From Clostridium ljungdahlii DSM 13528 (GTDB taxonomy: Bacteria > Bacillota > Clostridia > Clostridiales > Clostridiaceae): a stretch of 64,000 nt of DNA. A program made the translations under genes and the position numbers. The stretch is taken from assembly GCF_000143685.1 (NCBI RefSeq), contig NC_014328.1, forward strand, positions 3,968,001-4,032,000, read 5' to 3'. Positions 1-25,009 of this stretch are shown one piece after another. Position 1 is the stretch's first letter. Each line of letters starts with the position of its first letter. The notes under the pieces were generated by a model that was not told the origin of the DNA, did not search any database, and worked only from the letters and a program-made list of their open reading frames with translations.

Positions 1-111
1 TTTATAATTTAAGCCTTTAGCAGCAGCAAAGGCTTTTAATGAATCATAATGCCCTATTATATATTCTTTTTTTAGCTCATGCCAATTATGGCGTTTATAT
101 TTCTCAATCAT
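1..111 (-). CDS. N-terminus of a small phage protein, possibly terminase small subunit (partial)
   Basis: An open frame starts with ATG at 111, with AGGAGTG a few bases upstream, and runs off the left edge after 37 codons. The visible peptide has the pattern W-x2-LKKEY-x-(I/T)-G-x-Y-x-SLKAFAAAKGLNY. I associate this with the N-terminal HTH of phage DNA-packaging or replication-associated small proteins, where a short arm is followed by an SLK-(E/A)-F-A-x-AKG helix. The C-terminal part is missing, so the role is an inference. It would be the next gene downstream of the minor head protein on the same strand. Confidence 0.45.
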   Translation of the reverse strand, partial: MIEKYKRHNWHELKKEYIIGHYDSLKAFAAAKGLNYK

Positions 112-254
112 GACACTTCACTCCTAAAATTGTAACTGCATAAAAGCTATTAACAAAATCATCTTTTCTACACTTAAAAATTTATATATTGGACCTTAAT
201 CTATACTATATACAGCTCTATCATTGCCTAAAGATTAATTAAATCGGACTTATA

Positions 255-923
255 TTAATATATTTTCATAAATTCCGCTTTTTTCATAACTTGAATTTTT
301 CCATTATAATAAACACGCCTTGGGAATTTGATAAAATCTATATTAATTACTGATTCTGCATAGCACCTACATCCATCACATTCACCTGCATTATATTCTC
401 CTATAAAGGGTTCTCCAATTAATTTTTCTGGTGAAGGTGGTTCGTTAAAATTAACAACTATTCCTTCCATGTTTTTATGAGATTTTCGAGTTTTACTATC
501 CATACATGAGCGCCAAATATACCAATTAAGTCCTAAATCTTGGCTTCTATTTTGATTGAAACTTGCTGAACATATGCTACATATTGTAAATGTAATTTTC
601 TGCATATCTTTGTTTGATATATCGAAAAATTTATTTTGTATATCTTCACATATGCTTTCTGGTCGCCTACCTTTAAAATGTTCATTTATTACATGATATA
701 CGATATTTTGGGGAATATTCTCTGGGAAAAACTTCATTACCATATAATTATTTTTTACTTTTTTATATATCTTTTCATATAAAGAATAATCTAATTCTTT
801 TTTTATTTCTTTATACATTTCATTTCCTTTAGTAGCTTTTGCAGATGCTTCTCTCCATGTCTTTGGCTCAGGATTTGTTCTTGATGTATTTCTATTACCA
901 AATATCTTTTTAAATATACCCAT
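255..923 (-). CDS. Phage minor head / head morphogenesis protein (Mu gpF / SPP1 gp7 family), short form
   Basis: This 222-residue protein contains the conserved core of the phage Mu F / SPP1 gp7 minor head family. Residues about 135-195 show R-S-x-MDSKTRKSH, then GIVVNFNEPPSPEKLIGEP and a Cys pair in DGCRCYAESV, the typical D-x-R-x2-H ... N-x-PP ... G-E-x3-CRCY arrangement. In the family this protein sits inside the procapsid and helps head assembly or DNA entry. Family members are usually longer, so this is a short, perhaps trimmed, version. It stands apart from portal and terminase genes, downstream of a CWB2 surface protein. ATG start at 923 with AAGGA upstream. Confidence 0.75.
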   Translation of the reverse strand: MGIFKKIFGNRNTSRTNPEPKTWREASAKATKGNEMYKEIKKELDYSLYEKIYKKVKNNYMVMKFFPENIPQNIVYHVINEHFKGRRPESICEDIQNKFFDISNKDMQKITFTICSICSASFNQNRSQDLGLNWYIWRSCMDSKTRKSHKNMEGIVVNFNEPPSPEKLIGEPFIGEYNAGECDGCRCYAESVINIDFIKFPRRVYYNGKIQVMKKAEFMKIY

Positions 924-2843: not shown

Positions 2844-4805
2844 CTAAATTGCAGTTATAGGTATTATGCCTCCCAACTGATCTATCGCAGTAAAAGACGT
2901 ATACCACTCGTCACCTCTCGTATCTCCTGACATGGTAACCTTTAGTACCCTAAAAATTCCATCCTTGTCCAGCGACCTATACACAGGTGTTTGCGTAGTA
3001 TTTGAATCTGTGGTATTTGTTCCACTAGCGCTAGGGGGATTACCATTATCAGCATCCATTAATTCCTTAGGTCTACCCCAAGAAGTCATATAAGGTGATG
3101 TTATGTTATTATCATGTCGTATTTGTTCTGGTATAGGCCTGTTTGCTGTATGTGCCGCATAGTTTCCACCATTACCATCGTATATTTCAACATGTTCTGA
3201 CCCCCCAGAACCTTCAAATAATAAATCCCCTGGCTTTCCTTCGTTTTTCAATCTATTCATATCACTTGAAATAAGCCCTCCATTTGCACATTTGGAATAT
3301 TGACTTGATGATGGTGCTGACATTGTTATTCCTGCTGCTGCATAACAAGTTTCTGCAAATATAGAGCAATCATACATTTCTTGTCCTTGTGAATTTGTTC
3401 CTCTACCTCCTAGAACGTAAACAGCTTTACCCTCTTGATGTTTTTGAACTATTTCTTTTGCTTTATCTATAATCTTTTGCCTAGTTGAATTTGTACTACT
3501 ACCTCCCATAGTTGGTACTGTACTATTCCCTGTTATGCTTATTTTCTTTGCTCTTATTAAACTATTATCTATATGAATAAGTGAATTTACTTTAATCTGT
3601 GGATTTAATAAGCATTGCCCTGTAATCCCATAATCACTTTGCTCTGGTGTCCCTATTAACCCACTAGAAGGGCTTAACTCAAATATTTCACCTTTTGGCA
3701 TTTCATCAAGTTTCACTAAATTTACTTTTCCATCTTCTGTGTAATATTTGCATCCATTACTTTCTGCAATTTGATTTAAATAGTCAGAAGATTTTCCAAA
3801 GAAAACTTTTCCTCTTGTGAGTTTAGGAGAATTATTTAAAGACTCTGATATGCTTCCTAAACTAACAGGGTATTGTGCTTTATTAACTATATGATCGACT
3901 ATAGACCTCGCTGTTTGACCCCTTGCTATAGAATAATTAGCTATATCAAAATTTACAGCTCTATCCGAATCTAAAGCTATTATTGTTAATCTATATGTAG
4001 CAGAGTCCTCTTTATCCCTTATAGTTTGTAATATATCTCCATCAAATATCGTTCCGTATTGGCTACCTTCATACCCCGCTTCAACTGTAACCCTTGTACC
4101 GTATAATTCAATGTTATTTTCTGTTTGAGAATTTAGATTATATATGGTTATTTCACTTGTGTTAGGCTCCATTAATATAGTTTTTACAATACTGAATGTG
4201 CATCTTAATTGAGATACATCAAAACCATTCCCTTTTTCATCACTTACAGTTATTCTATATCTTCTACCATAAAGTATCTGTCCTTCTTTTTGGCTATTTG
4301 CAACTACTTGATAATTTGTAGAAGGTATTGAAATAGATTGCTGGGAGTCTGCACTTGGTGTACCTGCGGTTCCTGTAAATTGATTATAATATTTTTGTGC
4401 ATATTCTTGCCTTGTACTTAATCGTGGTACTCCTGGTCTTTCAAAACAAAAGCACATTGCTGCAGTTAAATCATTTATGCTTCCGTTACCAGACATGAAA
4501 TTATCATGTGATAAGTAACCACTTACGTTTGTCCATTGGGATTCTGCCCCGGTGTTTCCGGTGTCTCCAGTTAATTCAGCCCACAAAAAATTAAGCTGGT
4601 GTGTTAAATCAGTTCCATATGCTTCAAGCTGTGTCCTACGTTCAAAACTCCATTGAATTAATCCAAAACCATCCCCACTTCCTGATTCAATTTCGCTAGG
4701 GTTAAAACTACTTTCACCATAGATATTTCCCATTACAGCTGCGGTACTTTTTTCAGAAAAATTTTTACTTCTTAAAAATCTCCAAACATCTTCTTCTATA
4801 CTCAT
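2844..4805 (-). CDS. Phage tail lysin/hub fusion: tail lysozyme + baseplate-hub region + NlpC/P60-like hydrolase
   Basis: A 653-residue composite protein. Residues 1-145 match the phage tail lysozyme fold: a helical start, E31 in GNIYGESSFNP as the likely catalytic Glu, and GFGLIQW. Residues about 180-425 are beta-rich and look like a baseplate hub / late control protein of the gp27 or XkdQ type (ITIYNLNSQTENNI, FDGDILQTI, DSDRAVN). Residues about 440-585 form an NlpC/P60-like cysteine hydrolase with C480 in YDCSIFAETCY and H538 in SEHVEIYDG. The tail (about 605-653) returns to hub-like sequence, so the hydrolase appears inserted in the hub. Such proteins puncture and digest the cell wall during DNA injection. 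Start ATG at 4805 behind AGGGGTGAT; the 52-codon gene upstream ends 12 bp away. Confidence 0.82.
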   Translation of the reverse strand: MSIEEDVWRFLRSKNFSEKSTAAVMGNIYGESSFNPSEIESGSGDGFGLIQWSFERRTQLEAYGTDLTHQLNFLWAELTGDTGNTGAESQWTNVSGYLSHDNFMSGNGSINDLTAAMCFCFERPGVPRLSTRQEYAQKYYNQFTGTAGTPSADSQQSISIPSTNYQVVANSQKEGQILYGRRYRITVSDEKGNGFDVSQLRCTFSIVKTILMEPNTSEITIYNLNSQTENNIELYGTRVTVEAGYEGSQYGTIFDGDILQTIRDKEDSATYRLTIIALDSDRAVNFDIANYSIARGQTARSIVDHIVNKAQYPVSLGSISESLNNSPKLTRGKVFFGKSSDYLNQIAESNGCKYYTEDGKVNLVKLDEMPKGEIFELSPSSGLIGTPEQSDYGITGQCLLNPQIKVNSLIHIDNSLIRAKKISITGNSTVPTMGGSSTNSTRQKIIDKAKEIVQKHQEGKAVYVLGGRGTNSQGQEMYDCSIFAETCYAAAGITMSAPSSSQYSKCANGGLISSDMNRLKNEGKPGDLLFEGSGGSEHVEIYDGNGGNYAAHTANRPIPEQIRHDNNITSPYMTSWGRPKELMDADNGNPPSASGTNTTDSNTTQTPVYRSLDKDGIFRVLKVTMSGDTRGDEWYTSFTAIDQLGGIIPITAI

Positions 4806-5787: not shown

Positions 5788-6192
5788 CTACTTGATAACT
5801 TTCATGTTACGGAACTTCTCAAGCTCCTGTGCAAGTTCATTCTCATTTACAGTTTTGTTTGTTTCGTCTGTTTCATCATCATCTATAGCCGTTGGTACAC
5901 CTAGTGTTCTGTCTATTAAATACTTATTAGCAGAAAACTTTACTCTTTGATCTGTACTTTCCTTTGCTATCTTCTTTACTTCATCAATATAAGTGTTTAC
6001 ATCCTTTAATATATAAGCATTGCCTTGGTTCTTGATGTCCTGCGTTCGCCTGTTCAGCTCAGCCTTAACCTCATCACTATCTTTCCATGTATAAATTGAG
6101 GTTCTGCTTACTCCAATCTTCTTAGCAATATCAGTAATCCTATAACCTTCTATAAGCATTGTAATCATCTTCTCTTGATCTTTAGTAAGCAA
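5788..6192 (-). CDS. HTH protein of the phBC6A51 / small-terminase-like type
   Basis: A 134-residue protein with TTG start at 6192 behind AAGGAGGG. Residues about 3-45 form a transposase-style HTH: a helix with MITMLIEGYRITDIAKKIGV followed by SRTSIYTWK. The rest is helical (EVKKIAKESTDQRVKFSANKYLIDRTLG) and ends in an acidic, TDET-rich tail. This architecture is seen in phBC6A51-type phage proteins and small terminase subunits. Its place just after the ArpU-like regulator, where small terminase often sits, supports that reading, but no large subunit follows. Function therefore remains tentative. Confidence 0.6.
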   Translation of the reverse strand: MLTKDQEKMITMLIEGYRITDIAKKIGVSRTSIYTWKDSDEVKAELNRRTQDIKNQGNAYILKDVNTYIDEVKKIAKESTDQRVKFSANKYLIDRTLGVPTAIDDDETDETNKTVNENELAQELEKFRNMKVIK

Positions 6193-8965: not shown

Positions 8966-9221
8966 GGCAACAAAGGCAACAATTTTTTCTTATATATGTG
9001 TATACGTATATTAGGCGTGTATATGTATATACATATATGCCTATTTATATAAATAATACTTATATAATATTTTTTGTTGCTTTTGTTGCTCATAGTATTT
9101 AAGTCTTTGGTATTATTAGCATTACAATGGCAACAACTTCGACAACAAAATTATTTTTTCTGTTGCCTTTGTTGCCATTGTAATTAAATATAAAAATAGC
9201 TTTGTTGCTAATTCTGTTGCC
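8966..9221. repeat. Five pairs of GGCAACAA-type repeats around an AT-rich palindrome (candidate phage origin)
   Basis: Paired copies of GGCAACAA or its close variants occur at 8966 and 8975 (forward), 9074 and 9083 (reverse), 9129 and 9141 (forward), 9160 and 9169 (reverse) and 9202 and 9214 (reverse). Three pairs have a 9-bp period and two have 12. ATTACAATGGCAACAA (9121-9136) and its exact complement (9169-9184) form a 16-bp inverted repeat. Between the first two pairs lies a TATA-rich stretch. The array fills the gap between the VirE primase/helicase gene and VRR-NUC, which suits replication-protein binding sites (iterons). Confidence 0.65.
9012..9043. repeat. AT-rich palindrome inside the repeat array
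   Basis: TAGGC (9012-9016) pairs with GCCTA (9039-9043), enclosing the perfect 16-bp palindrome ATATGTATATACATAT (9021-9036). Flanking DNA is almost pure A/T. It could be a DNA-unwinding element or a cruciform. Confidence 0.55.
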
Positions 9222-11644
9222 TAAATTTTGCGTGTGTAAGCTCTTTGTTTCCCATAAATTTTCCCAAATGTTAAGGAATTATTATATTTTTTCCATCCCT
9301 TTAAGCTTTTAAGGATATCATTAATTTCACGTGACTGAATTGGTGTAAGATGCTTTGGATCACCATTGAAAAGCTCACACCATATTTCCATTACACAGGT
9401 TTTAGTTCTTTGTATATTTCCTTCAGGTATATCACCAAATTCAGATCCATGTATATAATTTCTCCTATCCGCCATACACAGGCTATACCAGTTTTCAGGT
9501 AAAGGCTTGTTTAAATATTCTTCAATTAATCCAGCCTTTGCACTTTCCTCGCTATGAGCCTCCTGCTGTTTTTGTGCTTCTTTTTCTTCATCAGCACTTA
9601 AATACAAAGTCTCACCATCATTCCAGAGTGCTACAGCCTCAGCCCATATTTGATCTATTGTATAGCTGTCCATATCTTTAAATACACTTTTGCTATGGGC
9701 TGTTACACCTACATCTATTGGCCAAAACCTTCTATTACCGGTTTTATCTCTTAAGAACTCCCTATCATTTGTAGTACCTATAATTACACACTGACGTGGG
9801 AATCTGCTTGTCCTTCTGCCATATGCTACCCTGTAGATATCTTCCTGCTTGGATAAAAAATGTTTTGTAGCTTCAATATCAGCTTTCTTTGTTGCCATCA
9901 TTTCTCCCATTTCTAAGAGCCATACACCCTGTAATTGCTCATATGCTTCTTTACCAGTTACAGTAGTTAAGCTGTCAGAGTACCACTTTTTACCTAGTTT
10001 TTTAATAAAAGTACTTTTACCTATTCCCTGTGGTCCACTTAAAACTGCCATATTATCAAATTTACAACCTGGTTTAAATACTCTTGCTACTGCTGCCACT
10101 AATATTTTTCTCATGACTGTCCTTACATAACTGTTGTCTTCAGCACCTAAGTAATCTATAAGTAAAGTATCAACTCTTTTAATGCCATCCCATAATAAAC
10201 TATCTAAATACTCTTTTATTGGATGGAATGAATGTTTTTCAAAACTTAAGGCTAGAGCATCAGCACATTTTGTTGTAGAATTTATTTTGTAATACTTTTC
10301 TATAAATTCTCTAAGCCCACTATCGTCAGTATCATTCCAGTCTGACATATTATCTTTTTTTCTCCAGGGCAGTTGCCCAATAACTACAGCTCTATTTGAA
10401 AATTCATTATAAGCAATTTTTCCTTTTAATAGAGGCTCATTTTCAATTACTAAAAGAAAGTTGCTTATGGTACTCCTTAACTTTCCATTGTCTGTATATT
10501 CAAGATCTTTAAGCCACCTGGTGTCTGTTTCATCCTCAACTATTCCAAAGTCCTCCTGAGCTTTTTCCATACGTTCTTTACCAAGAGTTTGTATTACCTT
10601 TTCATCATTGGATGCAAATTCAGTCATTTTAGTAAATGAGGGTAATCTATTAGCTGGTGTATCTGGTTTTGCTTCATCATCAAGCCCACCAAACTTGTGT
10701 ATTCTTACTAAGTCAAAAGCATTACATAATATTTCTGAAGCTGGGTCCGTACCATGATGGCTGTAACTGAATTTATCTTCATACACTACAACCCCACCTG
10801 CTGTTGAACCTTCCGCATATGTGTACCTGGTTTCATCCATGCCAGGTACATACACATCTTTTAAAAACTCATCTATAGCTTCGCTTATTGAATAGGTCCT
10901 GCAGAAAGCACCTATAACACCTTTTTTATTTAATGGGTCTTCCTGTTTCTTTATAGCTGTGTTTATCTTTGCTCTTGTTCTGCTGCTCTCTGGCCAGTAA
11001 CTTACATCCTGCCATCCAAACGTATATCTATCAAGCACTTCATCAGGATTAAGCCATGGTAAGTCTTGAACCTTAAACACGTATTCTCCATTACTTGAAG
11101 TACTTGGCCAATACATAAGTCTTGAGGGTTCATATGTTGTATCGTCAAACTGGTCTATCCCTAAATCATCTGCAATTATTCTAGCAATAGCCTGGTATTC
11201 ATCTGGAAGCACTGGCCTTGATAAAGGTATTACAAGTCTCAGTCTTTGATTATCTGGCGCATGTGTATGAGTTGAATACATAAGACAATTAAAGTCCCAT
11301 AAAAGCTCTATACTTGACCATATATCGCCATTTGCATAATCTATATCTAAAGTAATTAGCGTCCTATTAGCAACGTTCTCAGCCTTCCTACGACCATTTT
11401 TTAAAGAGCCACCTACAAATCCGCCAATATCTTTAATTCTGTCTCTTTCACTCTTAGACATTTTTTTATATTCTGTATAAGTTTCAGGTGTTCTTGTTGT
11501 ATTAGATAGCTTTTCAACTAGAGCCGAGTATAATAAATTTTTGTTTTTCCAATGTTTTTCATGTTTGCTTTTTCCGGTGGCAAGTGTTATGGATCCATCA
11601 TATTTAATTTTAATTTTGGGACTATTTCTTGCCGTATATTCCAA
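9221..11644 (-). CDS. Phage primase/helicase with VirE (virulence-associated E) ATPase domain
   Basis: An 807-residue replication protein. The N-terminal third is primase-polymerase-like: LITLDIDYAN carries a D-x-D pair (D100, D102), and STHTHAPDNQRLRLVIPLSR (about 124-143) carries the His and Arg residues of the PriCT/AEP type. Residues about 480-720 are the VirE superfamily 3-like ATPase, with Walker A GPQGIGKST (537-545), WLLEMGEM as Walker B-like, and IIGTTNDREFLRD as sensor 1 with the following Arg finger region (GNRRFW). It would prime and unwind phage DNA for the family A polymerase. Start is TTG at 11644 behind GGGGGTGAT. The repeat array begins at its stop codon. Confidence 0.87.
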   Translation of the reverse strand: MEYTARNSPKIKIKYDGSITLATGKSKHEKHWKNKNLLYSALVEKLSNTTRTPETYTEYKKMSKSERDRIKDIGGFVGGSLKNGRRKAENVANRTLITLDIDYANGDIWSSIELLWDFNCLMYSTHTHAPDNQRLRLVIPLSRPVLPDEYQAIARIIADDLGIDQFDDTTYEPSRLMYWPSTSSNGEYVFKVQDLPWLNPDEVLDRYTFGWQDVSYWPESSRTRAKINTAIKKQEDPLNKKGVIGAFCRTYSISEAIDEFLKDVYVPGMDETRYTYAEGSTAGGVVVYEDKFSYSHHGTDPASEILCNAFDLVRIHKFGGLDDEAKPDTPANRLPSFTKMTEFASNDEKVIQTLGKERMEKAQEDFGIVEDETDTRWLKDLEYTDNGKLRSTISNFLLVIENEPLLKGKIAYNEFSNRAVVIGQLPWRKKDNMSDWNDTDDSGLREFIEKYYKINSTTKCADALALSFEKHSFHPIKEYLDSLLWDGIKRVDTLLIDYLGAEDNSYVRTVMRKILVAAVARVFKPGCKFDNMAVLSGPQGIGKSTFIKKLGKKWYSDSLTTVTGKEAYEQLQGVWLLEMGEMMATKKADIEATKHFLSKQEDIYRVAYGRRTSRFPRQCVIIGTTNDREFLRDKTGNRRFWPIDVGVTAHSKSVFKDMDSYTIDQIWAEAVALWNDGETLYLSADEEKEAQKQQEAHSEESAKAGLIEEYLNKPLPENWYSLCMADRRNYIHGSEFGDIPEGNIQRTKTCVMEIWCELFNGDPKHLTPIQSREINDILKSLKGWKKYNNSLTFGKIYGKQRAYTRKI

Positions 11645-11687
11645 GTTATCACCCCCTTTATATCTTTAACCTAAATAGAATTTTAAT

Positions 11688-11906
11688 TTAGTGTAGAAAC
11701 ACATAGCCCTCTTTGATATCTCGACATTCAGATTTTTTATAGATTAGTAACTCTTTTTGGCATCCACCCATATCTTCTGTAATGCATTCAAACTCTATAA
11801 AGTCTATATTATATAACTCATCATTGTTATCTAAATTCCATTCTATAGTAGAATTAAATTCTCTTCTTTTAATAACTTTCTTTATTACAGCCTCTATTAA
11901 ATTCAT
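11688..11906 (-). CDS. Hypothetical phage protein (72 aa)
   Basis: The ATG at 11906 (MNLIEAVIKKV) has GGAAGGAG ten bases upstream, so I prefer it to an in-frame ATG 20 codons earlier. The 72-residue product has a basic N-terminal helix, a beta-rich acidic middle (WNLDNNDELYNIDFIEFECI) and two Cys. I do not recognise a family. It lies between the SIR2 gene and the primase. Confidence 0.6.
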   Translation of the reverse strand: MNLIEAVIKKVIKRREFNSTIEWNLDNNDELYNIDFIEFECITEDMGGCQKELLIYKKSECRDIKEGYVFLH

Positions 11907-12048
11907 TTTAATAAAGCTCCTTCCTTTAAAAGCATTTAAATTAATTAAAAATACCGTAAAATTCATTTTTGAATAATACGGTATTATTATGATATTTAAT
12001 ATAAATTTTTATTAAATTTATTCTACTATAAAATAGCTATTATAATTT

Positions 12049-13395
12049 TCAAACCTCATATTTATCCCCATTCATCACTTTCCTTAGCAAATCAATGCAT
12101 GCACTTGAGTACTTCCTAAAACGACTTGTTTCACCGGTCTTAACTGATATATGATACTTATTATCTGTAGATTTAATATCGACTCCCTTTTCTTCTCTTA
12201 TCTTTTCAATTAATTCATTAGCTTTATACCAACTCTTAAATCCAAGTTTTTCAGCAACTTGCGTTAATGTATAGGGATAGGCAATATTAAATGTTTTTGG
12301 ATCAGCGACACTTGTTATGCCATAAATTTTGTTTATTTCATTATCGTCATTGAGTGCACTTTCCAATGTTTCATAATCAATTTCAATTTTGCGTTTTGGG
12401 ATATCTGCTCTTACTAATTCATATGTTCGAGATAGTAAAGCTCTTAATAATTTAGGATTCACTCTTTCAATTGCCTCTTCATTAGTAAAGGCCTTATATA
12501 CCCACTTGTAATCATCAGCTACAATTTGATTAATTCTTATGCTTTTATCATTTTCAAGATTAATTATTTTTTCCATGGGGTATTGCTCATTATTATTAAT
12601 TTTTTCACTCCAAGTAACAATATAAATATTAGGTACTAATTGATTGTTAGTTGATAATATTTCATCAATATCAGATAGTATAGCTTGTATATTAGGATCA
12701 CCAGCATTATATCCTATAAACACTAATGGGTGTTCCAAAAAGAATGTTAGTAACTTTGCACTAAGATACTTCTTTTTTGATAAAAATATATCATAATCTT
12801 GTTTTGTAAATACAAGACTTTCAGGCTCACTTATACATCCATGTATTTTAAATATTTCACCTATACTTGTATACTGAGATCTTAATATTTTTTGACCAAT
12901 AATAGGCGTATAATCATCGAAAATCATTTCAATAAATTTATCATAATTTGTTGTAATAATTGCATAGGGTTTAATTTCTTGAAGCAAGGTAATTTCATCC
13001 TGATGTAACTTTATTTCACTAATATTTTTAGGAACGATACTTTCAAACAAATCTGCGATTTTACTTTTAATAAATATATCTGATTTATACTCATCTGAAA
13101 AATACTCCTCAGGAAATTCTTCTTCACCATCTGACCAAGCCCATTCTTTATAAACATCTGATAATTCTGTACCGATTTTAATAGGATTCCCATACGTTTG
13201 TTTATAATAACCATATTTTTTAGCAATTGAACAGTTCTCTGCTAATATTTTTAATAATTGATTCCAATTAGGAGCATCAAAATATCTCTTAGATATACCA
13301 CTGCCTAAAAATAGTATTGGCTGACATTCCATATTAGTTAAGCATTCTTTAACATTACTAATACAATTATTTTTATAGGTTTCATACTTATTCAT
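12049..13395 (-). CDS. SIR2-domain protein (predicted NAD-consuming antiviral cargo) with C-terminal winged-helix-like domain
   Basis: A 448-residue protein. Residues about 20-270 are a SIR2_2 / SIR2-like Rossmann domain: FLGSGISKR (29-37), the NAD-site ITTNYDKFIE with N150 and D152, KIHGC with the catalytic-type H185, and FIGYNAGDPN (226-235). In bacterial defences such as ThsA, DSR1/2 and SIR2-HerA this fold degrades NAD during phage infection. Residues about 370-430 (TLTQVAEKLGFKSWYKANELI, then KYHISVKTGETSRFRKYS) look like a winged HTH, perhaps a nucleic-acid sensor. No partner helicase, Ago or TIR gene is adjacent. It interrupts the primase-polymerase gene pair and has its own extended -10 promoter, so it is probably expressed in the lysogen. 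The defence role is inferred. Confidence 0.82.
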   Translation of the reverse strand: MNKYETYKNNCISNVKECLTNMECQPILFLGSGISKRYFDAPNWNQLLKILAENCSIAKKYGYYKQTYGNPIKIGTELSDVYKEWAWSDGEEEFPEEYFSDEYKSDIFIKSKIADLFESIVPKNISEIKLHQDEITLLQEIKPYAIITTNYDKFIEMIFDDYTPIIGQKILRSQYTSIGEIFKIHGCISEPESLVFTKQDYDIFLSKKKYLSAKLLTFFLEHPLVFIGYNAGDPNIQAILSDIDEILSTNNQLVPNIYIVTWSEKINNNEQYPMEKIINLENDKSIRINQIVADDYKWVYKAFTNEEAIERVNPKLLRALLSRTYELVRADIPKRKIEIDYETLESALNDDNEINKIYGITSVADPKTFNIAYPYTLTQVAEKLGFKSWYKANELIEKIREEKGVDIKSTDNKYHISVKTGETSRFRKYSSACIDLLRKVMNGDKYEV

Positions 13396-13454
13396 ACTAT
13401 CCCCCCTATTTCCCCCCTATAAAATTACACTTTTTTTATTATCATCATATGGAA

Positions 13455-13463
13455 ATTATAACA
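13455..13463 (-). promoter_or_regulatory. Extended -10 promoter for the SIR2 gene with a possible operator
   Basis: TGTTATAAT on the minus strand (13455-13463) is a consensus extended -10 about 60 bp before the SIR2 start. It overlaps an inverted repeat with CATAC (13462-13466) and GTATG (13475-13479) arms. No good -35 is needed for an extended -10. Two G-runs follow before the ATG and serve as ribosome site. Confidence 0.55.
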
Positions 13464-13610
13464 TACTATTTTAGGTATGGTATCATTTTTTTGAACAAAA
13501 TGTCATATTTTTCAACACCGTATTATTCAGTTTTCAAGGTTCAATATTAAAACATAATTTATTTATGTTTTTGCAATCTAATAAAGTCATATTTAAGTGT
13601 ATATCTCTTA

Positions 13611-15563
13611 TTAATCTTTCATATAGTAATTACATTCATACCCATCCGCTTTAAGTGGAAGTCCTGGAGCCCATTCTATAGGTTCACCAAAAATATCACA
13701 TATTTCTTCCACTGTTCCTTTACCCTTAGGTACATCGCATATAAGTTCATCATGAACATGCATCACAATATGAAAACCTTTGTCTTCAACTCTCTGCATT
13801 GTTATGCCTAGGCAATCCCTAGCAGTGGCTTGAACTATATTCTCTACAATCTTAGGTCCATAAGTTTCTAATGTAGTCCACTGTTTAGAAGTCTGCTGTA
13901 AGCCTTCATAAGTAATTATTGGTTTATCATATGGACCGGGCTCTATCTTAGGTCTTATATAAGCTAACTTTCTTCCACTTGGCAGTTGAATAAATAAAAC
14001 CCCTGGGTCATATATAAATTTAAGTCCAAATTGCAGAACTACTGTTGTCCTCTCTCTTATTGCTTTTTTAGCTGCTTTGTCTACGTCCCACCAAAATTTA
14101 GTTATGTGTGGGCTTGCATCTCTCCAATCTTTTACCAGTCCTGGGAGTTCATCTTCTGGAATATTTTTTTTCTTATCCATACTCATAAGAGCTCCAACAC
14201 TTCCACCATAACCTAGTGCTAATTCTGCTATCTTTCCTTTTTGCCTCAGGTGTCCATTAATACCATGCTTTTCTACAGGAACCTTAAACATTTTAGATGC
14301 AGAGGCACAATAAATATCACCATTATTATTAAAAACATCAAGCCTCCATTGTTCTCCTGCATACCAGGCAATTACTCTTGCCTCTATGGCGCTAAAGTCA
14401 GCAACAATAAACCTATTACCTTCCTTAGGTATAAATGCAGTTCTAATAAGCTGTGAAAGCGTGTCAGGTATACTGTCATATAAGAACTCAACTTTATCAA
14501 ATTGTCCTGTTCTTATGAAGTTTCTGGCATCATCTAAATCTGGTAAATGATTTTGTGGCAAATTCTGTACTTGTACTAATCTTCCAGCCCATCTTCCAGT
14601 ACGGTTTGCACCATAGAATTGTAATAACCCTCTCATTCTTCCGTCTTCACATCTAGCTCTTTGCATAGTTTCATATTTTTTTATACTTGTCTTGGCCATA
14701 AGCTGTCTTAATTCTAAAATTTTTTTAACTTTTTCATCTTTACTTTCTTTTATAAGTGTTGGTATACTGTCCTTTGTAAGACTTTTAACTTCATGGCCAA
14801 CCCTTTCACCAATCCATCTTTTTAATTGAGTTGGGCTATTAGGATTGCTTAATCCTGTTAATTCTGTAGCCTCTTTCGTAAGCCTTTTATTATAACTGTT
14901 ATTACATTCAATTGCTTTTTCTATAAGCTCTATATCAGCTCCAACACCTCTATCATTTATGCACTGGTCTAATTCCCATAATCTCTGTTCATTTTCTGTA
15001 GTTGGATACCTATTCAATTTATTTCTTATAGCTCTTTCAACCTCAACATCTTGCTTATTATATTTTTTAAATATCTCCCACTTTTCTGGTGCATGTTCAG
15101 GTAAATTTCTAGTTCGGCCACCATTGGATTTAGTTGGCTTGCATGGCTTACAGAAATATTGAATTAAGGCTTTACCTTCTTTCATTTTTTGCTTGTCTTC
15201 TTCAAAACGCAGTACTTTACCAACCATATCAAGTGAACCTGGTAAACCAAGTATTAGAGATTGAACCATTGTGCATTGCCAATCTTCAGCATCTATTCCA
15301 TTTATTAAATATTTCTTTAATGCATTAATCTCAAAATTGGCATTAAATGCAGTTTTTAATATTCCTGGATTTAATAGAGCAGTTTTAACTTTCTGGGGTA
15401 ATTCTTCACCCTGAGCAAAATCTATAACTTCTACTGGTTCATCATTGAAAGCATAAGCAAATAGTAGTATTTGAAATGATGGGTGCTCACAATATTTATA
15501 AGCACCCACTTTTTTAATATCTAACTCGCAATATGTTTCAACATCTATTGCTAAAGTATCCAT
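13611..15563 (-). CDS. Phage family A DNA polymerase (PolA-like)
   Basis: A 650-residue polymerase. Residues 1-180 are a DnaQ-like 3'-5' exonuclease: D7-x-E9 in AIDVETY, FNANFEINAL, and YNKQDVEVE with D172. Residues about 290-650 are the polymerase: NRTGRWAGRLVQVQNLP, motif A VADFSAIEAR (D389), motif B RQKGKIAELALGYGG (440-454) and motif C MHVHDELI. There is no 5'-nuclease domain. It copies the phage genome with the VirE primase/helicase and DUF2815 protein. The ATG overlaps the stop of the DUF2815 gene in a TAATG junction, indicating translational coupling. Confidence 0.95.
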   Translation of the reverse strand: MDTLAIDVETYCELDIKKVGAYKYCEHPSFQILLFAYAFNDEPVEVIDFAQGEELPQKVKTALLNPGILKTAFNANFEINALKKYLINGIDAEDWQCTMVQSLILGLPGSLDMVGKVLRFEEDKQKMKEGKALIQYFCKPCKPTKSNGGRTRNLPEHAPEKWEIFKKYNKQDVEVERAIRNKLNRYPTTENEQRLWELDQCINDRGVGADIELIEKAIECNNSYNKRLTKEATELTGLSNPNSPTQLKRWIGERVGHEVKSLTKDSIPTLIKESKDEKVKKILELRQLMAKTSIKKYETMQRARCEDGRMRGLLQFYGANRTGRWAGRLVQVQNLPQNHLPDLDDARNFIRTGQFDKVEFLYDSIPDTLSQLIRTAFIPKEGNRFIVADFSAIEARVIAWYAGEQWRLDVFNNNGDIYCASASKMFKVPVEKHGINGHLRQKGKIAELALGYGGSVGALMSMDKKKNIPEDELPGLVKDWRDASPHITKFWWDVDKAAKKAIRERTTVVLQFGLKFIYDPGVLFIQLPSGRKLAYIRPKIEPGPYDKPIITYEGLQQTSKQWTTLETYGPKIVENIVQATARDCLGITMQRVEDKGFHIVMHVHDELICDVPKGKGTVEEICDIFGEPIEWAPGLPLKADGYECNYYMKD

Positions 15564-22356: not shown

Positions 22357-23532
22357 ATGGCTGTTAGTGTAAAAGAACGTTATTCTAAAAGATTAAAAAT
22401 AAAAACTTATTCTTATGAAATTGATTTTATAGATCCAACTACAAAAGAACGTATAAGAGAAACAGACAGTGGCTTTACAACTAAAAAAGAGGCAAGAGCT
22501 GCTGGTAGAAAAAAAGAAATAGAATTGAAAGATAAAACCACATTGGGATTTAAAAATAATAAAATTAAGTTTTCCAAATTTATAGTAGATTGGTTAAATA
22601 CTATTAAACCACAATTAGCTAACTCAACCTGGGTAAGATATAAAATTGCTGTAGATAAAATAATGATTCCAGCTTTAGGTGATAAATATTTAGATAAGAT
22701 AAAGCCAAGTGATATAAATGCTATGTACTTACATTGTACCAATGACTTAGGTAATTCTACTACAACTATAAGGCAATACCATTGGATACTTTCAAAAGCT
22801 TTTAAAAACGCTCTAAGATGGAAAATAATTGATTATGATATAATGACCACTATAGATCCACCAAAAAAAGCCAAACGTGAACTTACCGTGTATAATAAAG
22901 ACCAATTATTCTTGTTATTAGATAGAATAAAAAATTTAACCTGTTATATGCCAGTTTTATTATCATCAACTACAGGTATGAGGCTAGGTGAGTTATGTGG
23001 ATTAAGGTGGAAAGATGTTAACCTAAAAGATAAAGAAATATATATTACCAGGCAACTTCAAAAAGTTGATGGAGAACTCCAGTTATTAGAATTAAAAACT
23101 CCTACTTCAAAAAGAAAAATCCCTTTATTGGATTACACAATAAAAGGACTTGAAGATTTAAAACAAATTCAAGAGTATAATAAATCAAAAAATGAAAACT
23201 ACGATAAACGTAGTTTTGTAATATGTAAAGAAGACGGATCTCCTTATGAACCTAATTATGTTTCTAAAAATTATACTAGAGTAATGAAACAATATAATGT
23301 ATGTAAAAAATTAAATATACCTTATATTAGATTTCATGATTTAAGACATACTTATGCTACCATGCTCTTGGTTGCTAATACTAATCCAAAAGTAGTTTCT
23401 GAACTTATGGGACATAGTACAGTTAGTATGACATTAAATACTTATAGCCATGTGTTACCTAGCTTAAAGGAAAACGCTATAAACAAATTAGAAAATTTAT
23501 TATTTCCGGGGGATGAAAACCCGCAAAAATAA
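22357..23532 (+). CDS. Tyrosine site-specific integrase (Tn916/phage type)
   Basis: A 391-residue integrase. Residues 1-60 are an arm-binding AP2-like N-terminus; 70-160 a core-binding SAM-like domain; 175-380 the catalytic domain. The active-site set is complete: R209 in TGMRLGEL, K247 in LKTPTS, H327 and R330 in FHDLRHT, H353 in MGHST and Y363 in NTYSHV. It lies in series after the repressor with 37 bp between. Its 3' end is 90 bp from the CCA end of tRNA-Arg, so the prophage is integrated there. Start ATG with AGGGAG upstream. Confidence 0.95.
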   Translation: MAVSVKERYSKRLKIKTYSYEIDFIDPTTKERIRETDSGFTTKKEARAAGRKKEIELKDKTTLGFKNNKIKFSKFIVDWLNTIKPQLANSTWVRYKIAVDKIMIPALGDKYLDKIKPSDINAMYLHCTNDLGNSTTTIRQYHWILSKAFKNALRWKIIDYDIMTTIDPPKKAKRELTVYNKDQLFLLLDRIKNLTCYMPVLLSSTTGMRLGELCGLRWKDVNLKDKEIYITRQLQKVDGELQLLELKTPTSKRKIPLLDYTIKGLEDLKQIQEYNKSKNENYDKRSFVICKEDGSPYEPNYVSKNYTRVMKQYNVCKKLNIPYIRFHDLRHTYATMLLVANTNPKVVSELMGHSTVSMTLNTYSHVLPSLKENAINKLENLLFPGDENPQK

Positions 23533-23621: not shown

Positions 23622-23698
23622 TGGTGCACCCAGGGAGATTCGAACTCCCGGCCTCTGGATTCGAAGTCCATCACTCTATCCAGCTGAGCTATGGGTGC
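23622..23698 (-). tRNA. tRNA-Arg(TCG), probable prophage attachment site
   Basis: Acceptor GCACCCA pairs with TGGGTGC, followed by discriminator A and an encoded CCA. The anticodon loop is CTTCGAA. It is the last gene of the 15-tRNA operon and its 3' end faces the integrase, so the att core is probably within this end. Confidence 0.93.
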
Positions 23699-23726
23699 TC
23701 ATACTATTTAATTATAAATATGAAAA

Positions 23727-23800
23727 TGGAGCGGGTGAAGAGAATCGAACTCTCATAACTAGCTTGGAAGGCTAGCACTCTACCATTGAGTTACACCCGC
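23727..23800 (-). tRNA. tRNA-Gly(TCC), copy 1
   Basis: GCGGGTG pairs with CACCCGC, encoded CCA, loop centre TTCCAA. The sequence is identical to the copies at 24077 and 24782. Confidence 0.95.
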
Positions 23801-23819
23801 ATATCTTTATTAAATTAAA

Positions 23820-23895
23820 TGGTCGGGGTGACAGGGATTGAACCTGCGACCTCATGGTCCCAAACCACGCGCGCTCCCATCTGCGCCACACCCCG
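23820..23895 (-). tRNA. tRNA-Pro(TGG), copy 1
   Basis: CGGGGTG pairs with CACCCCG, encoded CCA, anticodon loop TTTGGGA. Identical to the copy at 24934, including a few flanking bases. Confidence 0.95.
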
Positions 23896-23912
23896 TTATT
23901 AAATTGAACTTA

Positions 23913-23988
23913 TGGTGCGTCATCGGGGGCTCGAACCCCGGACAACCTGATTAAGAGTCAGATGCTCTACCAACTGAGCTAATAACGC
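23913..23988 (-). tRNA. tRNA-Lys(CTT), copy 1
   Basis: Acceptor GCGTTAT with ATGACGC (one G-T pair), encoded CCA, loop CTCTTAA. It differs from the copy at 24621 mainly in the acceptor and T-arm. Confidence 0.94.
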
Positions 23989-23994
23989 TAATCA

Positions 23995-24071
23995 TGGTGC
24001 GTCTTAAGGGATTCGAACCCCCGGCACACGGCTTAGAAGGCCGTTGCTCTATCCAACTGAGCTAAAGACGC
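23995..24071 (-). tRNA. tRNA-Arg(TCT), copy 1
   Basis: GCGTCTT pairs with AAGACGC, encoded CCA, loop CTTCTAA. Identical to the copy at 24700. Confidence 0.95.
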
Positions 24072-24076
24072 ATATT

Positions 24077-24150
24077 TGGAGCGGGTGAAGAGAATCGAAC
24101 TCTCATAACTAGCTTGGAAGGCTAGCACTCTACCATTGAGTTACACCCGC
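24077..24150 (-). tRNA. tRNA-Gly(TCC), copy 2
   Basis: Same sequence as the tRNA at 23727-23800, with CCA encoded; five bases separate it from tRNA-Arg(TCT). Confidence 0.95.
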
Positions 24151-24158
24151 AATTTATT

Positions 24159-24233
24159 TGGAGCGGAAGACGAGATTCGAACTCGCGACGTTCACCTTGG
24201 CAAGGTGACGCTCTACCACTGAGCCACTCCCGC
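24159..24233 (-). tRNA. tRNA-Gly(GCC)
   Basis: Acceptor GCGGGAG with CTTCCGC, encoded CCA, anticodon loop TTGCCAA. Single copy in this window. Confidence 0.95.
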
Positions 24234-24263
24234 ATATATAAAAATTGCATTTATTATTACAAA

Positions 24264-24348
24264 TGGTGCAGGTGAAGGGAGTCGAACCCCCACGCCGTAA
24301 AGCGCTAGATCCTAAGTCTAGTGCGTCTGCCAATTCCGCCACACCTGC
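24264..24348 (-). tRNA. tRNA-Leu(TAG)
   Basis: An 85-nt class II tRNA with long variable arm; acceptor GCAGGTG with CACCTGC, CCA encoded, loop CTTAGGA. Confidence 0.94.
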
Positions 24349-24378
24349 ATAGACTAATGTAATAATTTAAAATTAAAA

Positions 24379-24454
24379 TGGTGGCTCACCGGGGAATCGA
24401 ACCCCGGACAACATGATTAAAAGTCATGTGCTCTACCAACTGAGCTAGTGAACC
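24379..24454 (-). tRNA. tRNA-Lys(TTT)
   Basis: Acceptor GGTTCAC with GTGAGCC, CCA encoded, loop CTTTTAA. Confidence 0.95.
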
Positions 24455-24458
24455 ATTT

Positions 24459-24533
24459 TGGCTGGGATGGCAGGATTTGAACCTACGAATGATGGAGTCA
24501 AAGTCCATTGCCTTACCACTTGGCTACACCCCA
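24459..24533 (-). tRNA. tRNA-Gln(TTG)
   Basis: Acceptor TGGGGTG with CATCCCA, discriminator G, CCA encoded, loop CTTTGAC. Four bases separate it from tRNA-His. Confidence 0.94.
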
Positions 24534-24537
24534 ACAG

Positions 24538-24614
24538 TGGGGTGAACGATGGGGCTCGAACCCACGACAACCAGAACCACAATCTGGCGCTCTACCAACT
24601 GAACTACGTTCACC
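24538..24614 (-). tRNA. tRNA-His(GTG)
   Basis: Acceptor GTGAACG with CGTTCAC, loop TTGTGGT. An extra 5' G (24614) faces discriminator C (24541), the G-1:C73 pair that identifies tRNA-His. CCA encoded. Confidence 0.95.
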
Positions 24615-24620
24615 ACATCT

Positions 24621-24696
24621 TGGTGCGCCATCGGGGACTCGAACCCCGGGCAACCTGATTAAGAGTCAGATGCTCTACCAACTGAGCTAATGGCGC
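24621..24696 (-). tRNA. tRNA-Lys(CTT), copy 2
   Basis: Acceptor GCGCCAT with ATGGCGC, CCA encoded, loop CTCTTAA. Changes against copy 1 in the acceptor are compensatory. Confidence 0.94.
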
Positions 24697-24699
24697 TTA

Positions 24700-24776
24700 T
24701 GGTGCGTCTTAAGGGATTCGAACCCCCGGCACACGGCTTAGAAGGCCGTTGCTCTATCCAACTGAGCTAAAGACGC
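24700..24776 (-). tRNA. tRNA-Arg(TCT), copy 2
   Basis: Same sequence as the tRNA at 23995-24071; only three bases separate it from tRNA-Lys. Confidence 0.95.
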
Positions 24777-24781
24777 ACGCT

Positions 24782-24855
24782 TGGAGCGGGTGAAGAGAAT
24801 CGAACTCTCATAACTAGCTTGGAAGGCTAGCACTCTACCATTGAGTTACACCCGC
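24782..24855 (-). tRNA. tRNA-Gly(TCC), copy 3
   Basis: Same sequence as the other two Gly(TCC) genes, CCA encoded. Confidence 0.95.
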
Positions 24856-24933
24856 ATAATCTTTTATGTCAAATAAAAAGAATTCACTACTTTATTTCTT
24901 CCTTACATTCAACTAAGTTTTATCTTAATTAAA

Positions 24934-25009
24934 TGGTCGGGGTGACAGGGATTGAACCTGCGACCTCATGGTCCCAAACCACGCGCGCTCCCATCTGCGC
25001 CACACCCCG
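24934..25009 (-). tRNA. tRNA-Pro(TGG), copy 2
   Basis: Same sequence as the tRNA at 23820-23895. It is the first gene of the operon, with the promoter about 60 bp upstream. Confidence 0.95.

Follow-up and report, generated by a model that had tools for sequence, protein, structure and literature searches.

The window analysed here is a stretch of 64,000 nucleotides from Clostridium ljungdahlii DSM 13528 (NC_014328.1, positions 3,968,001 to 4,032,000), and positions are counted within it unless a genome position is stated. Our subject is a prophage gene on its reverse strand, which encodes a SIR2 protein with a winged-helix-like C-terminal tail. The gene had been singled out beforehand in a reading of the DNA letters that used no database searches (hereafter the sequence-only reading). 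It is made up as follows.

12049..13395, reverse strand: SIR2 - winged-helix protein of 448 amino acids, ATG at 13395 and stop codon at 12049-12051 (open reading frame (ORF) list, PF13289, PDC-S25 core, structure model)
12481..13395, reverse strand: SIR2 domain, residues 1-305, with G31-S32-G33, N150, D152, H185, G228, Y229, D233 and N235
12301..12480, reverse strand: middle segment, residues 306-365, mostly of low model confidence (pLDDT), yet conserved
12052..12300, reverse strand: C-terminal winged-helix-like domain, residues 366-448, with the order H-b-H-H-b-b-H (structure model, structural matches)

The frame runs for 448 codons from the ATG, uninterrupted by any stop. A SIR2-like fold with N150, D152 and H185 in place had been described from the sequence, and this was borne out: the Pfam family SIR2_2 (PF13289) covers residues 145-268 (E 1.4e-25), a SIR2 fold was modelled, and the three residues stand exactly at these positions (codons 12946-12948 for N150 and 12841-12843 for H185). 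Homologues were checked for their loss, and all three were conserved in 99 of 99 aligned relatives; this alignment was made without the window's own copy (L002) and without seven loci that have stops or frame breaks in the matched stretch (L018, L054, L073, L075, L078, L082 and L106). The protein has the characters of antiphage-type SIR2 proteins, namely a GxG motif and the Asn and His of the NAD+ site. The closest structures to the SIR2 part were those of defence SIR2 proteins with NAD+ hydrolase activity, with no deacylases among them, and a Foldseek search against viral models gave nothing at E ≤1e-3. Mapped onto ThsA, the protein would be expected to hydrolyse NAD+.

The best catalogued match was PDC-S25, a PADLOC candidate (PDLC04968/PDLC04967). 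Residues 13-401 aligned to positions 12-393 of the 517 of the model (E 1.2e-85), whereas model positions 394-517 had no counterpart in the window protein. A full-length match to PDC-S25 is not reached by this form, PADLOC's own coverage thresholds not having been seen. Six of six chosen database relatives of the window form (451-461 amino acids) end at model positions 335-378, and four of four tested sister ORFs (523-531 amino acids) reach positions 514-515. phrog_2695 (function unknown, 531 positions) is likewise matched partially, over 2-367. At loci L109-L135, 24 ORFs of 497-563 amino acids (29-40% identity) match the window protein only up to residue 305-377; when their tails were compared by single-linkage BLAST, 23 clustered, one stood alone, and none was linked to the window-type tail. 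The middle segment, for which a weak profile match was obtained (E 0.0035, probability 9.4%), is largely common to the window protein and the PDC-S25-type family. Judged by these alignments, the window protein and PDC-S25 stand for sister families that share their core and differ by a swap of the tail.

The winged-helix-like nature of this tail, proposed from the sequence, was put to structure prediction and gained support, residues 376-448 being modelled confidently with such a fold. The structural matches were modest; 21 of the 24 listed were DNA-binding or winged-helix proteins, judged from their titles. Across 99 relatives, drawn from distant phyla, four tail residues (D411, N412, H415 and Y429) are conserved in 96-97. 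The tail was then compared as an alignment of 61 of the 77 prepared tail sequences plus that of the window. No Pfam family was present in more than 4 members when the 62 tails were scanned, the tail profile gave chance-level matches only against PDB sequences (the top one being Bet v 1, E 0.025), and hhalign against the MarR domains of the same genome gave a score of 0.65 (probability 0.03%).

Of the 7995 proteins scored in a protein search, 1439 reached E ≤1e-3. The 120 relatives listed are 434-474 amino acids long and align over 90-100% of the query, and those at 73-88% identity retain the full length. On genome contigs, relatives were found in 239 stretches, of which 80 were kept; going by their titles, we take these to come from Firmicutes, Proteobacteria, Bacteroidota, cyanobacteria, planctomycetes, methanogens and haloarchaea. 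Plasmid records with relatives numbered 166, 23 of them covering at least 80% of the protein, and a nucleotide search of the gene against plasmids (near mode) gave no match. The search for the same architecture in viral DNA, which the sequence-only reading had proposed as a check, was positive: 27 of 45 viral contigs with relatives extend to residue 445 or further. Within the host family, 12 of 206 genomes match at E ≤1e-20, and a match beyond residue 370 was seen in the own genome only (that of genome G130 is cut by a contig end). By these searches the family is large and cross-domain, with members in Bacteria and Archaea. Horizontal transfer is suggested because it is so widely spread, over chromosomes, plasmids and viral contigs, and so patchy in the host family.

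Neighbouring genes were counted in 106 of 107 loci, L106 having given no target ORF. Within four ORFs of the gene, every neighbouring family is found in at most 7 of the 106, and for this reason the protein appears to act alone. Four loci read by eye (L038, L097, L098 and L101) have the gene between lysis genes and an HNH/terminase block, unlike the window position. A scan of 121 of the 146 prepared nearest neighbours of genomic relatives, which lists 25 families, included matches at E ≤1e-15 to PD-T7-3, PD-Lambda-3_B, ShosA, AbiEi, PDC-S13, S14 and S15, as well as to type I specificity and type II methyltransferase proteins.

Comparison with characterised SIR2 systems showed differences in each case. 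Thoeris ThsA has a SLOG/STALD C-terminal domain not found here, and the ThsA models align only within residues 121-296; the TIR-domain partner ThsB was absent from the 8 window proteins scanned with Pfam around the gene, and the 106 loci have no constant partner. DSR2 is about 1000 amino acids long, and its C-terminal region binds the phage tail tube protein that triggers it, according to a passage of PMC10981675, whereas the window protein has 448 residues and a winged-helix-like tail. The length of DSR1 and DSR2 (about 1000-1200 amino acids) is not approached, and the Dsr1 model is matched only at 115-207 of its 1227 positions. KomC (Kongming / HAM SIR2) is a SIR2 protein of 264-278 amino acids solved, by the structure titles, in complex with KomB, whereas the window gene has no recurring partner. 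As for SIR2-HerA, SIR2-pAgo and KomBC, no HerA, pAgo or KomB was met among the same 8 flanking proteins, no search by name having been made. The human FAM118B (SIRal) is a filament-forming vertebrate protein, and its solved construct (residues 34-334) is without such a tail. Uncharacterised SIR2 systems are reported for P4 and P2 hotspots by Rousset et al. (PMC9122126).

The gene lies between two replication genes of the prophage, with one small ORF beside it.

13611..15563, reverse strand: phage family-A DNA polymerase, upstream flank (PF00476, E 2.7e-29; phrog_17)
9221..11644, reverse strand: VapE-type primase/helicase, downstream flank (PF05272, E 1.1e-86; phrog_256)
11688..11966, reverse strand: small ORF between the SIR2 and VapE genes, 92 amino acids from the first ATG (weak phrog_3458 match, E 1e-4)

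The gene was thus correctly said to split the polymerase and primase genes, and all three point in the same direction. It is AT-richer than its flanks (GC 0.282, versus 0.348 for the polymerase and 0.356 for VapE). We sampled 110 loci that encode a related polymerase, 80 of them viral and 30 genomic; the junction could be judged in 68 of them, there being no VapE within the available DNA of the other 42. Of these 68, 28 have a gap of 14-32 bp between polymerase and VapE and 3 have one of 108-113 bp; in the remaining 37, which include the window's prophage, it measures 262 bp to 6.2 kb. The figure of 28 overstates the independent short-gap cases, because 21 of them (L155-L174 and L208), all with a gap of 15 bp and a polymerase identity of 65-67%, seem to belong to a single group of phages. 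Two of the loci with a 15-bp gap, L168 and L173, carry a different SIR2 stretch elsewhere (3-488, reverse strand, 31% identity), which is cut off by the locus edge.

The cargo at the junction varies between loci (window site 11645-13610; relatives L138-L247). It includes an Abi-alpha gene (PF14337, E 3.1e-53; PDC-S47, E 7.9e-57) and an NA37 gene in L175, a KilAC/Bro-N antirepressor in L243, an integrase in L141, and methyltransferases, named by eye, in L141 and L210. Within the available DNA of the 110 loci, the SIR2 gene occupies the junction in its own prophage only (L138, L218), and the small ORF was seen only in L138, which is the same prophage. We conclude that the polymerase-VapE junction is a cargo hotspot, devoted to defence only in part. 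The position of the gene, within a replication module and in the same reading direction, would also suit a sirtuin that modifies proteins or DNA (as a deacylase or an ADP-ribosyltransferase), is brought to DNA by its winged helix, and takes part in the regulation or replication of the prophage instead of in cell suicide; according to PMC9503650, ADP-ribosylation of macromolecules or a part in RNA repair has been proposed for some phage sirtuins. Such a role is very unlikely in our view, given that the closest structures are NAD+-hydrolysing defence proteins, not deacylases, that relatives sit on plasmids, chromosomes and other phage sites, and that, within the available DNA of the sampled loci, the gene is at the junction in this prophage alone.

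The limits of the prophage are given by two features.

22357..23532, forward strand: integrase-like protein, named by sequence appearance, adjoining tRNA-Arg
23622..23665, no strand assigned: 44-bp att-like direct repeat within tRNA-Arg (23622-23698), with an exact second copy at genome position 3958731

The second copy lies 9.27 kb left of the window, and the two delimit an element of about 33 kb, in agreement with the 33,086 bp of IMG/VR contig 648028017_000005, in which the SIR2 gene is present at 100% identity. The element seems poor in structural genes: relatives of a head morphogenesis protein (255-923), a baseplate hub protein (2844-4805) and a small terminase (5788-6192) were seen, and no large terminase, portal or capsid gene was found among the ORFs examined, ten by search and the others by eye in listings of ORFs of at least 90 or at least 110 amino acids. 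The prophage is likely to be incomplete. This, together with the patchy distribution in the host family, speaks for a gene that has decayed into a passenger and no longer has a function, an explanation we regard as extremely improbable, as the 448-codon frame, the catalytic residues and the tail are all intact and the relatives at 73-88% identity keep their whole length.

The surroundings of the element gave further observations. An array of 15 tRNA genes (23622-25009), in which Gly, Lys, Arg and Pro tRNAs are repeated, stands beside the insertion site. The tRNA-Arg repeat occurs a third time, as a 31-bp copy, at genome position 3949838, 8.9 kb left of the prophage end, which points to a further element placed in tandem; the DNA between the copies at 3949838 and 3958731 (about 1838-10731 of L248) encodes proteins with matches to OGG (E 2.7e-18) and to AbiLi (E 8.9e-46), and with a weak one to PDC-M15A (E 1.3e-07). 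A prophage protein of 631 amino acids (L248, 11637-13532, reverse strand) has a metallopeptidase-like part matching PADLOC capP (E 8.9e-39) and the phrog_87 metallo-protease. Proteins resembling cell-wall-binding repeats, named by appearance, are encoded at 1024-2523 in the prophage and at 7994-9541 of L248 in the neighbouring stretch. At genome positions 353475-355415 the host chromosome encodes a further polymerase of this phage family (54% identity), which probably marks another prophage.

The 215-bp gap upstream of the SIR2 gene contains two features.

13455..13463, reverse strand: extended -10 motif TGTTATAAT, about 60 bp before the start and without a good -35 (motif count)
13400..13420, reverse strand: tandem repeat ATAGGGGGGA x2, G-rich and ribosome-binding-site-like, a direct repeat immediately 5' of the ATG

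The sequence-only reading had given the gene a promoter of its own and a possible operator. The first part stands in a weakened form. TGTTATAAT is a perfect extended -10 on the correct strand, and about 0.02 would be expected on that strand of the gap from the window rate, or somewhat more, the gap being AT-richer than the window; on the other side, the window holds TGNTATAAT 13 times versus 10.0 +/- 3.3 expected, and the number of sigma-70-like sites in 11500-13700 is as expected by chance (19 observed versus 17.1 +/- 4.5). As a promoter of the SIR2 gene the motif is suggestive. The operator was set aside, because no inverted repeat of at least 10 bp was found in 13396-13620. A terminator scan found nothing. 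The candidate promoter and the G-rich repeat directly upstream would fit the same NADase defence protein with its tail put to another use, binding its own promoter or making oligomer contacts, while a phage-protein trigger is felt through the middle segment. That segment is conserved, most of it recurs in the sister family with the other tail, and the activation of DSR2 by the tail tube protein offers a precedent for such a trigger. We consider this arrangement unlikely: autoregulation finds no upstream inverted repeat, and the conservation of D411, N412, H415 and Y429 in distant relatives seems to go beyond what a promoter-specific autoregulator would need.

The reading that we favour, and hold to be fairly probable, is that the gene encodes a stand-alone abortive-infection protein, an NADase triggered through its tail, and is defence cargo of a prophage integrated at tRNA-Arg. 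This reading builds on the ORF, the modelled SIR2 fold, the intact catalytic residues, the modelled tail, the cargo site and the lack of a constant partner, and from these we infer the NADase activity, the defence role, the trigger and the oligomer switching. At rest, the protein would be an inactive oligomer. Its winged-helix domain would recognise a phage-related trigger, which may be DNA, a replication intermediate or, alternatively, a protein of the phage; the SIR2 domains would then rearrange and hydrolyse NAD+, and the loss of NAD+ would halt the infected cell ahead of phage release. The superinfection-exclusion system sensing nucleic acid that was first proposed is partly supported, namely as to single-gene defence cargo, and the trigger may be DNA or phage protein alike. 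The strongest alternative to DNA sensing is that a protein is sensed, because the C-terminal region of DSR2, in the passage already cited, senses a phage protein. A bolder version, in which the winged helix of this tail-swapped PDC-S25 sister binds foreign or replicating DNA directly and activates the SIR2 NADase, would make it a single-chain immune sensor of about 450 residues common to Bacteria and Archaea; we put it forward tentatively, as possible and somewhat improbable.

Several observations weigh against a tail-triggered defence protein. A Foldseek search of the tail against the PDB gave every E above 1. Compared by hhalign with 18 MerR domains of the same genome, the tail scored 7.65 (probability 0.28%); 30 column shuffles reached a top score of 22.1, above the real one, with a mean of 3.6, and profile-level homology to MerR domains gained no support, since the real score falls inside this range. 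Named phage genomes gave 8 matching records, none covering more than 66% of the protein. Genes at least 5.5 kb away in the same loci (100 of the 121 prepared were scanned, again listing 25 families) also include defence proteins, for example type I restriction; we claim the presence of defence neighbours, not their enrichment, because distal genes from the same stretches are no clean control. Of 10 cargo proteins scanned, taken from the larger ones, just 2 were matched by a PADLOC model, in one case weakly (DzbB, 2.6e-09), and for this reason the junction is not considered a pure defence site. Finally, SIR2 proteins may also be deacylases or ADP-ribosyltransferases, as a passage of PMC9503650 notes.

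SIR2 proteins are known defence effectors, and the core of this one is already catalogued as the candidate PDC-S25. To our knowledge, the trigger reaches the known SIR2 defence proteins by way of a different domain or a partner protein (SLOG, an extended C-terminal region, HerA, Argonaute, STAND or KomB). The 450-residue winged-helix form has no full-length model in the Pfam, PADLOC, phrog and NCBIfam searches, and the window protein matched none of the NCBIfam models. Literature searches for SIR2 with a winged helix in anti-phage or NADase roles, or for standalone single-gene SIR2 defence, found nothing on this form in the collection searched, and a search on PDC-S25 by name found no paper there; a passage of PMC11514479 names other PDC-S families and not S25.

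One SIR2 core and middle segment joined to two unrelated tails amounts to a natural tail swap, which allows one to ask directly what the tail senses. The polymerase-VapE junction, in turn, is a testable cargo site at which further prophage-borne defence genes may be found in Clostridia.
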